Shown: one piece after another, positions 213 to 60,582 of the stretch
Numbering within the stretch: the first letter of the stretch is position 1
Layout of the letters: each line of letters begins with the position of its first letter
DNA from: Gluconacetobacter takamatsuzukensis
GTDB lineage: Bacteria; Pseudomonadota; Alphaproteobacteria; Acetobacterales; Acetobacteraceae
Assembly: GCF_014174275.1 (NCBI RefSeq)
Contig: NZ_JABEQK010000001.1
Span: 434,001-498,000 of the forward strand
Direction of reading: 5' to 3'
DNA length: 64,000 nucleotides
The notes under the pieces: model-generated
What the model saw: the letters and a program-made list of their open reading frames with translations, nothing else
Told to the model about the DNA's origin: nothing
Database searches by the model: none
Position numbers and translations under genes: made by a program

Positions 213-2945
213 ATGTTCGCCAGTCTTGCCCGTGCCCTGTTTGGAACCGCCAACGATCGTTCTCTGAAGGCATTCCAGCGCCGCGTGCCCGAGATCAACG
301 CGCACGAACCCGCGCTGCGTGCGCTGGACGACGCGGCCCTTGCGGCCAAGACGGTGGAGTTCCGGGAGCGGATCGCGAACGGCACGTCGCTGGACGCGCT
401 GCTGCCCGAGGCCTTCGCGGTGGCGCGCGAGGCCGCGCGCCGCGTGCTGGGGATGCGCCATTTCGACGTGCAGCTGATCGGCGGCATGGTGCTGCATGCC
501 GGGCGGATCGCCGAGATGCGGACCGGCGAGGGCAAGACGCTGGTGGCGACGCTGGCGGTCTATCTGAGCGCGCTGGCCGGCAAGGGCGTGCACGTGGTGA
601 CGGTCAACGACTACCTGGCCCGCCGCGATGCCGAGGAAATGGGCCAGATCTATGCCTTCCTGGGCCTGACCACGGGCGTGATCGTGCCCAACATGGCCGA
701 CGAGGAACGGCGCGCGGCCTATCGGGCCGACATCACCTACGGCACCAACAACGAATTCGGCTTCGATTATCTGCGCGATAACATGAAGTACCGGATCGAG
801 GACATGGTGCAGCGCCCCTTCCACCATGCCATCGTGGACGAGGTGGATTCGATCCTGATCGACGAGGCGCGGACGCCGCTGATCATCTCGGGGCCGGCCG
901 ACGACAGTTCGGACCTCTACCGGTCGGTCGACGAGGTGGTGCGCGAACTGGTCAAGCTGCCCGAGGCCTACGAGAAGGACGAGAAGTTCCGCACCGTGAT
1001 CCTGACCGATTCGGGGTCGGAACAGGTCGAGACCATGCTGCGCGAGGCGGGCGTGCTGTCCGAGGGCGGGCTGTACGACATCCACAATATCGCGGTGATC
1101 CACCACGTGCAGCAGTCGCTGCGGGCCCACACGCTGTTCGCGCGCGACGTGGACTACATCGTGCGCGGCGGCAAGGTGATCATCATCGATGAGTTCACCG
1201 GCCGCATGATGGACGGCCGCCGCTATTCCGACGGGCTGCACCAGGCGCTGGAAGCCAAGGAGCATGTCGAGATCCAGCAGGAAAACCAGACGCTGGCCTC
1301 GATCACCTTCCAGAATTATTTCCGCCTCTATCCCAAGCTGTCAGGCATGACCGGCACGGCGATGACCGAGGCCGACGAATTTGCCGAGATCTACAAGCTG
1401 GACGTGGTCGAGATTCCGACCAACCTGCCGGTGTCGCGCAAGGACGGGGACGACGAGGTCTATCTGACCGCGCGCGAGAAATACGATGCCGTCAGCACCC
1501 TGATCGAGGAGATCGCCAAGACGCCGCAGCCGGTGCTGGTGGGGACGACCTCGATCGAGAAGAGCGAGTACCTGTCCGAGCTTCTGAAGAAGCGGGGCAT
1601 CCGCCACAATGTGCTGAATGCGCGGTTCCACGAGATGGAGGCGACGATCGTCGCCCAGGCCGGCGCGCCGGGGGCGATCACGATCGCGACCAACATGGCC
1701 GGGCGCGGCACCGACATCAAGCTGGGTGGCAATGTCGAGATGCGCATTCGCCAGGAGCTGGCGGATGTGACCGACCCCGAGGAAAAGGCGCGGCGCGAGG
1801 CCGAGATCCGCGCCCAGGTGGCGGAATATCACGACATCGTCCGCAAGGCGGGCGGGCTGTACGTGATCGGCACCGAGCGGCATGAGAGCCGCCGGATCGA
1901 CAACCAGCTGCGCGGCCGCGCCGGGCGGCAGGGCGATCCGGGCAATTCGCGCTTCTTCATCTCGCTCGAAGACGATCTGATGCGCATCTTCGGGACCGAG
2001 CGCATGGGCGGGATGCTCCAGCGCCTGGGCCTGAAGGATGGCGAGGCGATCGTGCATCCTTGGATCAACAAGGCCCTGGAGCGCGCGCAGAAGAAGGTCG
2101 AGGCCCGCAACTTCGACATGCGCAAGAACACGCTGAAATACGACGACGTCATGAACGACCAGCGCAAGGAGGTCTATGCCCAGCGCCGGGAATACATGGC
2201 GGCCGAGGACCTGTCGGCCACGGTGCAGGAGATGCGGGCCGACGTTATCCACGACATGGTGCGCCGGCGCATCCCCGAGAAGGCGTTTGCCGAGCAGTGG
2301 CAGAGTGCCGAACTGGCCGAGGATGTGCGCGAGACCCTGGGGCTGGATCTGCCGATTGTCGACTGGGCGCGCGAGGACGGGGTGGATGGCGATGTCGTGA
2401 CCGAGCGGCTGGACCAGGCGGCGACGCAGGCCCAGGCGGCCAAGGCTGCCAATTTCGGCCCCTCGGTGATGCGCTATATCGAGAAGCAGGTGGTGCTGAC
2501 CACGTTCGATTCGGCGTGGAAGGAGCATCTGCTGGCGCTGGACCAGCTGCGCCAGGGCATCGGCCTGCGCGCCTATGGCCAGAAGGACCCGCTGAACGAG
2601 TTCAAGCACGAGGCGTTCCAGCTCTTTACCGCCATGCTCGACGATCTGCGCCTGCGCGTGACCTCGACCATGGCGCGGGTCGAGGTGGCGCCGCCGGTGC
2701 TGGACAATCCGTTTACGCACGCGGCCGAGATCCATGCCGATCCGCATGTGCCCGGCCTGACCTCGGAGCCCGGGCCCGGCGCGCTGTTCGGCGAGACGGC
2801 GGGGGACGTGACGATTGCAACCCCGATCGGGGCCAGTGCGATCATGCCCGACGATCCGTCGAGCTGGGGCGAGACGCCGCGCAATGCGGCCTGTCCCTGC
2901 GGGTCGGGGAAGAAGTACAAACACTGCCACGGCCGCCTGGCCTGA
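213..2945 (+). CDS. secA: Protein translocase ATPase SecA
   Basis: This is the ATP-driven motor that pushes unfolded preproteins through the SecYEG channel at the inner membrane. The product is 910 aa, normal for the family. The Walker A stretch GEGKT lies at residues 105-109 and the DEVD Walker B box at 209-212. The extreme C-terminus is the zinc-binding SEC-C motif, with C894, C896, C905 and H906, which normally contacts SecB and lipid. I chose the ATG at 213 because the protein from there opens with the usual [11 protein letters not shown]-type N-terminus; the frame is open further upstream, but that extension does not look like SecA. The 212 nt before it hold no gene I can support. The TGA stop runs directly into a structured repeat that could end the transcript. 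Confidence 0.98.
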
Positions 2946-3109
2946 ATGTTGGCCCGGAAACGCGCGCTGGCGGCGATCCGACGCGCGTTTCCTGTGCTCC
3001 GGTGCTCACGGCCTGTATGGCCGCTCCGCTCCGGTGCTCGGAAACACGCGACGGGCGTGCCGCCTTGCGGCACTCTCGCTCGCCAGCCCACGTTTCCGGG
3101 CCAACATTG
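2945..3109 (+). repeat. Structured intergenic repeat, copy A (long form)
   Basis: The ends are perfect 18-nt inverted arms (2945-2962 and 3092-3109). The left arm begins in the secA TGA stop. Inside are a hairpin closed by GTTTCC/GGAAAC, a nested CGGCC/GGCCG hairpin, and a 7-bp stem GTGCCGC/GCGGCAC. The core is shared with copies at 30778, 37497, 38732 and 60421. It is probably the 3' end of the secA transcript and may act as a terminator or mRNA stabiliser; there is no U-tract. Confidence 0.85.
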
Positions 3110-3156
3110 AGCCGGGCCGGTCTATGATTTGATTGAAGAGTTAGAGAAGACGGACG

Positions 3157-3906
3157 ATGGCGGGTCATTCCCAGTTCAAGAACATCATGCATCGCAAGGG
3201 CGCGCAGGATGCGCGTCGGGCGCGGCAGTTTGCCAAGGTGATCCGCGAGATTACCGTGGCGGCGCGGTCGGGTCTGCCTGATCCGGCGAGCAATCCGCGC
3301 CTGCGGGCCGCGATTTCGGCGGCGCGCGAGGTCAACATGCCCAAGGATACGGTCGAGCGCGCGATCAAGAAGGCGACGGGTGCCGGGGGTGGCGACGATT
3401 ACGTGGAAGTGCGTTACGAGGGCTATGGCCCGGCGGGCGTGGCCGTGATCGTCGAGGCGCTGACCGACAACCGCAACCGCACGGCGTCGGACGTGCGGGC
3501 CGCGTTCTCGAAATATGGCGGGTCGCTGGGCGAGACCAATTCGGTGTCGTTCATGTTCACCCGGCTGGGCGTGATCGGCTATCCGGCGAGCGTTGCCAGC
3601 GAGGACGAGATGCTGGAGGCGGCGATCGAGGCGGGTGCCGAGAATGTCGAAAGCTCGACGGAAGGGCATGAGATCACCTGCCCGGTGGAATCGTTCTTCG
3701 CGGTGCGCGATGCGCTGGAGGCGCGTTTCGGCGAGCCGGCGAGCGCGAAATTCGACTGGCGCCCCGGAACGGTGGTGACGCTGGACGAAGACAAGGCGCG
3801 CACCGTGCTGAAGCTGATCGACGTGCTGGACGAGAGCGACGACGTGCAGGCCGTCTACGCCAATTTCGACCTGCCGGACGACGTGGCCGAGAGGCTGTCG
3901 GCCTGA
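3157..3906 (+). CDS. yebC: YebC/PmpR family DNA-binding regulatory protein
   Basis: This is a 249-aa member of the YebC/TACO1 family, identified by the hallmark N-terminus [15 protein letters not shown] and full-length collinearity. Bacterial members bind DNA as local transcription regulators, and some assist translation of proline-rich stretches, as mitochondrial TACO1 does. It is cytosolic. The gene sits directly before ruvC, a very common arrangement in Proteobacteria, so co-transcription with ruvCAB is likely (33 nt gap). The ATG at 3157 follows a purine-rich stretch (agagaagacggac). Regulation cannot be read from the sequence, although the repeat between secA and this gene probably separates the two transcripts. 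Confidence 0.95.
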
Positions 3907-3938
3907 CGGGCCCGATGCCCCCCCGCCCGTCCGCGGGC

Positions 3939-59972: not shown

Positions 59973-59988
59973 GCCACGGGCCCGGGGG

Positions 59989-60228
59989 TCAGGCCGCGTC
60001 GCGCAGCAGGACGCGCGCCGCTTCCGCGCGGCGCAGGGCGAAACGGGTGAAGCCGATGCCGACCGCGATCGGGTCCGCGCCGATCGGCCCCACGGCGACG
60101 ATGCGGATGGGTTCGCCCGGCACGAAACCCAGGGCGCGCAGCCGCTCGGCCACCGGGTCGCCGGCCGTGTGGTCTTCCACATGGTCGATGATGGCGCTGC
60201 CCCCCAGTTTCAGTTCGTTCAGTCGCAT
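59989..60228 (-). CDS. feoA: Ferrous iron transport protein FeoA
   Basis: This is a 79-aa SH3-like protein that activates FeoB. The start MRLNELKLGGSAIIDHVED and the segment AERLRALGFVPGEPIRIVAVGPIG match the FeoA core; the C-terminal FALRRAEAARVLL completes the small barrel. It is the first gene of the minus-strand unit feoA-feoB-Cys-rich protein, 16 nt before feoB. An AT-rich tract upstream (60257-60282) may be a Fur-type site, so iron-repressed expression is likely but not shown. It is cytosolic. Confidence 0.93.
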   Translation of the reverse strand: MRLNELKLGGSAIIDHVEDHTAGDPVAERLRALGFVPGEPIRIVAVGPIGADPIAVGIGFTRFALRRAEAARVLLRDAA

Positions 60229-60420
60229 CCCGGATCCGTTTCGGCACTTCAGGTTCAGTTGAGAATAATACTTAATATTTAAGCGTGCCGATGTCCATTG
60301 TGCCGGCTGCATTCCACCCGCTCGGGGCCGCATGGGGGGCCATGCGGCGACCGTGAGATCGGGAAGCAGGAGGGGGGAAAGGTCACGGGAACGGCTTATG
60401 AAACAGCCTGTTGCCTCGCA
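60229..60420 (-). other. feo promoter region
   Basis: This non-coding stretch precedes feoA and contains the AT-rich candidate Fur/Irr site at 60257-60282; the rest is GC-rich with no gene. Repeat copy E adjoins it. Confidence 0.5.
60257..60282 (-). promoter_or_regulatory. AT-rich candidate iron-responsive site before feoA
   Basis: A compact AT-rich tract (core GAATAATACTTAATATTTAA on the plus strand) stands out from the GC-rich surroundings 29-54 nt before the feoA start. It resembles a Fur or Irr box in composition, but the match to the 19-bp Fur consensus is loose. Confidence 0.35.
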
Positions 60421-60582
60421 GAGCGTGACCGGAAATGGGGGCTGGTGAGCGAGAGCAGCCCGAAGGGCTGCGCCCGTCGTGTGTTTCCGGGCATCGGAGC
60501 GGAGCGGCCTTGATGGCCGTGAGCACCGAAGCACAGGAAATGCGCGCCGGATCGCCACCCGCGCGCATTCCCGGCCACGCTC
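60421..60582 (-). repeat. Structured intergenic repeat, copy E (long form, minus orientation)
   Basis: Arms at 60421-60437 and 60566-60582 differ at two places, both U-G compatible when read on the minus strand. The minus-strand stop TGA (60583-60585) of the next gene is directly followed by GAGCGTGGCC. The third internal stem is GCAGCCC/GGGCTGC here and GTGCCGC/GCGGCAC in copy A, a compensatory exchange. It carries the long-form central hairpin. Confidence 0.85.

Follow-up and report, generated by a model that had tools for sequence, protein, structure and literature searches.

A dispersed structured repeat at gene ends in Gluconacetobacter, a probable miniature inverted-repeat element of the IS5 type

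Described Repeats of a Similar Kind

The nearest published analogue of the repeat family considered here, a dispersed and structured family with five copies (A to E) in a 64,000-nucleotide stretch of Gluconacetobacter DNA (the window), is the YPAL element of Yersinia. In the 2006 work of De Gregorio, YPAL reportedly follows stop codons at a short distance and is co-transcribed; if so, the two are alike in position, as the left tip of the Gluconacetobacter repeat lies on a stop in 98 of 146 copies. The sections of PMC2229807 that deal with YPAL (RU-2) describe a palindromic mobile repeat of ~168 bp with internal inverted repeats, a robust RNA fold, target duplications of 3 to 26 bp, and both empty and filled sites, and parts of a further source (PMC2759123) also treat this element. 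Unlike YPAL, the repeat described here shows TNA duplications only (among the shapes tested), has IS5-like terminal inverted repeats, places its tip on the stop codon itself, and folds better on the strand opposite the gene. The same sections of PMC2229807 present ERIC (RU-1) and Correia (NEMIS) elements as small dispersed repeats with terminal inverted repeats and long-stem transcripts; their termini are of the TA type, unlike those found here, and they are set apart on the basis of that description. Among the literature matches listed, which comprise open-license papers, no description of this repeat was found, and the main text of a 2024 review on prokaryotic miniature elements (PMC10969869) contains neither "stop codon" nor "Gluconacetobacter". 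The repeat resembles REP/REPIN sequences in being a dispersed intergenic palindrome, and differs from RAYT-associated REPs in having a branched fold of 145–165 nt and no Y1_Tnp gene in the source genome. Integron attC sites are imperfect palindromes that follow stop codons, keep a fold while varying in sequence, and are folded on one strand for recombination. Judged by this description, the repeat is unlike attC in that it follows ordinary chromosomal genes such as secA, carries TNA duplications and has ends like those of an insertion sequence (IS).

The repeat is best read as a nonautonomous miniature inverted-repeat element (MITE) of the IS5 type (IS1031-like), because its arms are similar to the termini of an IS of 883 bp, TNA duplications flank some of the copies, and empty sites are found in relatives. 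The mobile origin of the repeat is well supported. A preliminary description of the window had proposed a selected fold; it did not foresee the position on stop codons in a single orientation, the IS ends, or the better-folding opposite strand. In what follows, G000 denotes the source Gluconacetobacter genome, G001–G013 its relatives, and L-numbers the loci or copies in the compared genomes.

The Repeat Family and Its Fold

A covariance model was built from 40 copies of the source genome, and the search with this model located 86 distinct places in G000 (hand count, before the first opposite-strand re-hit). Within the window the model recovers exactly the five named copies, which lie within 1–2 nt of the positions first given. 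The shared core motifs and copy-specific arms that had been claimed can be read in all five sequences, as can the stem exchanges GTTTCC/GGAAAC against GTGTTTT/AAAACAC and GTGCCGC/GCGGCAC against GCAGCCC/GGGCTGC. A similarity search with copy A as query returned ~45 long matches across G000, and when each species was represented by a single genome, an exact-pattern scan returned 22 stretches, every one of them from Gluconacetobacter. The features concerned are as follows.

21–2945: frame upstream of copy A, with SecA Pfam domain matches
2945–3108, plus strand: full-length copy A, whose left tip coincides with the secA TGA stop, flanked by direct TGA at 2943–2945 and 3108–3110
30778–30906, plus strand: copy B, a short form in which the middle hairpin is missing, IS-like ends GAGCCTGTTTGGAAA, coding call on neither side, model strand the better-folding one, unlike other copies
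37497–37658, minus strand: full-length copy C, whose left tip coincides with the TGA stop (37659–37661) of a minus-strand SCO1/SenC gene
38734–38863, plus strand: copy D, short form, whose right tip coincides with the stop codon of an AMP-binding enzyme gene on the minus strand (38864–40603)
60421–60582, minus strand: full-length copy E, whose left tip coincides with the TGA stop (60583–60585) of a minus-strand frame without a Pfam match

The fold consists of 62 pairs in five helices, with an outer stem around a long arm and a hairpin. In the 40-copy alignment, 29 of the 62 pairs have changed on both sides, 93.1% of pairing cells are paired (84.5 in shuffles), 205 cells are changed on both sides and thus compensated (57.7 in shuffles), and the covariation score is 0.250 compared with 0.097 in shuffles. 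Sliding the partners by 1–3 columns reduces the covariation to 0.036–0.062, and none of 500 shuffles, which leave the kinship among the copies in place, reaches the observed level on any of five measures. Furthermore, the RNA folds of the five window copies in the orientation of the model have z-scores of −3.8 to −8.1. These results uphold the claim of a fold, with pairing kept through strong covariation. No Rfam family matches the repeat at gathering score, in agreement with the initial impression that it belongs to no recognized family; copy A yielded only four matches, all far under the gathering scores.

The fold extends to other genera. Among 28 matches at 20 loci in four genera, 47 of the 62 pairs change on both sides, in an alignment that was fitted to the model; its 28 rows include seven hits to the opposite strand and one extra hit. 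The four copies from other genera whose sequences were inspected retain a core like CTCCGGTGCTCACGGCC...GGCCGCTCCGCTCCGGTGCTC. The arms in these genera are quite different in sequence, yet they pair in most of the 20 copies. At least 21 of 120 Acetobacteraceae genomes match at an E-value of 1e-8 or better, two of them Gluconacetobacter, as do at least three of 289 genomes in a class-wide draw, G000 among them; the large genome searches used stricter filters, so these counts are lower bounds.

Several variants of the repeat were noted. The short forms B and D are without the middle hairpin, which has likewise been lost from the G010 copy after secA, here between direct repeats of CTCCGGTGCTC. 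At L016 (1005–1466), and also at L020, L033, L039, and L041, two or three units stand in tandem; later units often have no matching left arm, yet have a right arm in common with the first unit. The surroundings of copy B (window 30600–31100) form an AT-richer stretch.

Position on Stop Codons and Orientation

The placement of the repeat was determined for 146 Gluconacetobacter copies that had been retrieved as matches either to copy A or to the model (47 of the 86 places in G000, 72 copies in G002, and 27 in G004), with gene ends taken from a codon-usage heuristic trained on the window. Some of these copies are orthologous between genomes, and the counts are therefore partly nonindependent. 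In 98 of them the left tip coincides (within −2 to +9) with the stop codon of the gene that lies upstream on the same strand, and in the commonest register, represented by 53 copies, the arm begins with the last base of the stop codon. Only four copies, copy D among them, have their right tip on a stop. The same arrangement is observed in the four other genera, where the left tip is on a stop in 16 of 20 copies and the right tip in none. The stops found at −1 to +5 (n = 86) are TGA in 66 cases, TAG in 15, and TAA in 5. In a further 14 copies the stop is 154–197 nt upstream, which equals the spacing of the second unit of a tandem array, and in one case a copy covers the final two bases of a tRNA-Gly gene.

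A preference of the element for TNA targets would bring some copies to stop codons. If the stop and every TNA in the next 60 nt were equal targets, 42.2 copies (sd 4.4) would be expected at the stop, compared with 98 of 105 observed, and the 883-bp IS is at a stop codon in only two of 14 loci. Consequently, a preference for TNA accounts in part for the frequency of stops, but not at all for the bias in orientation. The copies with pristine IS-like ends are mostly off stops (B, L034, L158, and L159), L160 being at a stop.

IS5-Like Ends, Target Duplications and Empty Sites

The sequence GAGCCTGTTTGGAAA is both the arm of copies B and L034 and the terminal repeat of an 883-bp IS in G004 and G005, the protein of which matches DDE_Tnp_1 and DUF4096. 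These ends are also present in copies L158, L159, and L160, while the arms of most other copies have diverged from the IS end. Identical TNA is found on both sides of the IS at 11 of 14 hand-read loci (L147 and L164 being one site in two genomes). Perfect duplication of TNA is seen in 19 of the 146 full-length repeat copies of the three genomes (15 TGA, 3 TCA, and 1 TTA), and ten other duplication shapes examined by the same test account for 0–3 copies each. The repeat thus resembles IS5-family IS and MITEs in the GAGCCTGTTTGGAAA ends of part of its copies, in its TNA duplications, and in the presence of IS copies in the genus. It differs from the 883-bp IS in its core, which is unrelated as far as it was read and is kept across genera with different arms, and in its bias of position and orientation. 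The preliminary description had named a match to an ordinary IS terminal sequence as an outcome that would speak against its proposal; such a match was found for the arms and not for the core.

The source genome contains two full-length IS5-type transposase frames. One of these belongs to an element with ends GAGTCCGTTTGAGAATG and GAGCCTGTTTGAGAATG; the ends of the second were not found by the same scan. The association with a RAYT transposase that had been suggested did not materialize: G000 has no Y1_Tnp (PF01797) match, five control genomes were positive, and a REP/RAYT identity was rejected. Two further observations concern the ends. Copies L194, L196, L213, L129, L228, L236, and others have arms near GAGGCTGTTTCAAAAGC, perhaps reflecting a second IS with other ends, and L157 in G001 is a 57-bp mini form (501–557) with IS-like ends, a core fragment only, and TCA and TTA on its flanks.

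Comparison of relatives reveals both filled and empty sites. At one site that is filled in G005 and empty in G004, the flanks are 97.6 and 95.2% identical and a TAA stop is common to both genomes; the insertion is not perfectly clean, because some extra sequence follows the element on the filled side. The element after secA is present in G000, G001, G002, G006, G008, and G010 and absent in seven relatives (G003, G004, G005, G007, G009, G011, and G013), and the filled sites form two clades with different arms, each of which is paired. G006 and G008 have no copy C, and at this site the final codons of the filled gene are not those of the empty one, so that the protein end can shift slightly. Copy D is absent in five relatives. 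The private arms could also have come from a terminator hairpin that was already in place and received the element in its loop, but this was not supported: the empty sites at secA, C, and D and in G004 have no hairpin with the filled-site arms, a comparison that is clean only for G005/G004 and for copy D, as several other relatives have diverged.

The Better-Folding Strand

The strand opposite the upstream gene is predicted to be the more stable in 140 of the 146 Gluconacetobacter copies (45/47, 70/72, and 25/27 in the three genomes) and in all 20 copies from other genera. With DNA energies the opposite strand is also the better one for copies A, C, D, and E. In a composition control of 200 random 147-mers from the plus strand of the window, the reverse strand was less stable by a mean of 9.2 kcal/mol. 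Since strand composition matters for stability, a dinucleotide-shuffle test was run on 24 random copies; the opposite strand had a mean z of −11.90 and the gene strand one of −8.49, and the opposite strand had the lower value in 22 of the 24. Some mispairs kept within the helices point the same way: C-A oppositions at columns 43–107 (129/145) and 45–105 (108/145) correspond to G-U on the opposite strand. Overall, A-C mispairs outnumber G-T, 268 to 141 (33 to 12 by pairs), an excess that is due to states inherited by many copies. Selection for wobble pairs in a sense RNA was examined and rejected, as there is no G-T excess over A-C on the gene strand.

Evolution of the Arms

Old arms have diverged in step, each copy keeping its own matching arms. 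Between the close species G002 and G010, in 12 syntenic pairs with flanks mostly 95–99% identical, ten arm pairs have changed on one side and two on both, whereas the distant comparison (G000 with G002 or G004; at least 12 pairs) gives 18 one-sided and 32 two-sided changes; these tallies were made by hand, with cross-register tandem comparisons excluded. Five extra G000–G010 pairs, which are not independent of the others, add eight one-sided and five two-sided changes. The pair L009/L190, with 11 two-sided changes, may represent two insertions, and the distant total without it is 26 and 26. The two-sided share rises with distance, as expected of step-wise compensation.

Gene conversion among the copies was also considered and was not supported. 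Syntenic copies, it is true, are not clearly closer to one another in the core than to other copies. The core of the syntenic partner ranks 60, 32, 11, 51, 3, 8, 34, 3, 59, 64, 18, and 54 of 71 in twelve pairs and 22 and 3 of 27 in the remaining two of the 14. Between G002 and G010, however, the syntenic cores are 0.915–1.000 identical in 11 of 12 pairs by hand tally. The exception is L264/L168 (G010/G002), with a core identity of 0.798 despite flanks of ~97%, as if one copy had been replaced. We read this pattern of core similarity as saturation under constraint, with occasional replacement possible.

Possible Roles and Alternative Explanations

On the sequence evidence, we give roughly even chances to the view that the repeat is a MITE kept at gene ends by selection as a putative boundary. 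An IS5-type transposase would move the element into TNA targets, among which are TGA and TAA stops, and duplication of the stop would leave the gene intact. Copies in one orientation at the 3′ end of a gene would then be retained because their stable fold acts as a boundary, protecting the end of the message and perhaps blocking transcription that arrives from the other side. Given the better folding of the opposite strand, selection may act on an antisense RNA into the gene end, or folded single-stranded DNA, rather than the 3′ UTR of the gene itself. A broader version, to which we lend only tentative credence, would have an Acetobacteraceae-wide folded element homing on gene ends in a fixed orientation (stops, and once a tRNA 3′ end), with a putative opposite-strand antisense RNA or single-stranded DNA that marks or insulates the 3′ ends. 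A number of observations weigh against the boundary role and its opposite-strand molecule. TAG, the stop in 15 of 86 cases, is not a TNA, and 127 of the 146 copies are without a perfect TNA duplication. Columns 32–141 (143/145) and 36–114 (108/145) show the reverse of the C-A cases, with G-U on the gene strand, and in copy B it is the other strand that folds better, with both RNA and DNA energies. Among rare mispairs (states in three copies or fewer), which are likely recent, 45 are A-C and 57 G-T, a difference that is not significant; this lack of preference speaks against strong RNA-level wobble selection on either strand. By codon-usage calls the next gene runs in the same direction in 74 of the 146 copies and is convergent in 43, so that in the commoner arrangement nothing obvious transcribes the opposite strand. 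Finally, selection alone leaves the exact placement of the tip on the stop unexplained.

The main rival is targeted insertion, in which the element, or a helper that it uses, would seek out the 3′ ends of genes and always insert the same way round, guided for instance by translation termination, by the ends of transcripts, or by a folded intermediate specific to one strand, and no function at the site is needed. The orientation of 98 copies to 4 although both tips are near-identical, the 15 TGA among 19 intact duplications (nearly all of those at the left stop), the copy at the tRNA-Gly 3′ end, and a strand asymmetry that belongs to the element itself all favor it; that the IS with the same ends so seldom sits at a stop, and that the pristine-ended copies are mostly elsewhere, argues against it, and on balance we consider it rather unlikely. 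The repeat could instead be a 3′ UTR element like YPAL, whose gene-sense RNA folds and stabilizes the message, with the strand asymmetry a by-product of composition. The position and orientation of the copies agree with such a role, as does the gene-sense RNA, which folds far better than its shuffles, and so does the behavior of YPAL as given in the relevant sections of PMC2229807. This explanation is nevertheless improbable in view of the advantage that the opposite strand keeps after dinucleotide shuffling, the C-A mismatches kept within the gene-sense helices, and the missing excess of G-T wobbles on the gene strand. Least probable, in our estimate, is the absence of any function, whereby insertions survive only where they are harmless, at stops, and the arms stay paired via correction of imperfect palindromes during replication. 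Syntenic pairs in which every change is two-sided (L035/L218, 5:0; L016/L206, 3:0; L009/L190, 11:0) are what such correction would leave, and TNA sites alone would place 42 of 105 copies at the stop; but one-sided changes dominate between the close species, which fits step-wise compensation, the observed number at the stop exceeds 42, and neither the orientation bias nor the core kept in other genera is explained. The boundary role stands as the favored reading at the even confidence given above.

If the rules of position and strand hold, each genome would offer a natural library of dozens of gene-end structures, each with compensated arms, and a way to ask how a transposon becomes a gene-end element and whether its insertions are aimed at stops or filtered by selection. 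The family is also a caution that dispersed repeats with strong covariation can have arisen by mobility, and that the strand which folds may differ from the one read with the gene.

Neighboring Features

In the region around copies C and D (37400–38950), a pattern scan found no promoter-like sites and three terminator-like sites, none of them inside a repeat element. Elsewhere in the window, the Rfam scan returned a single family at or above its gathering score, a cobalamin riboswitch at 63367–63586 on the plus strand (105.7 bits).

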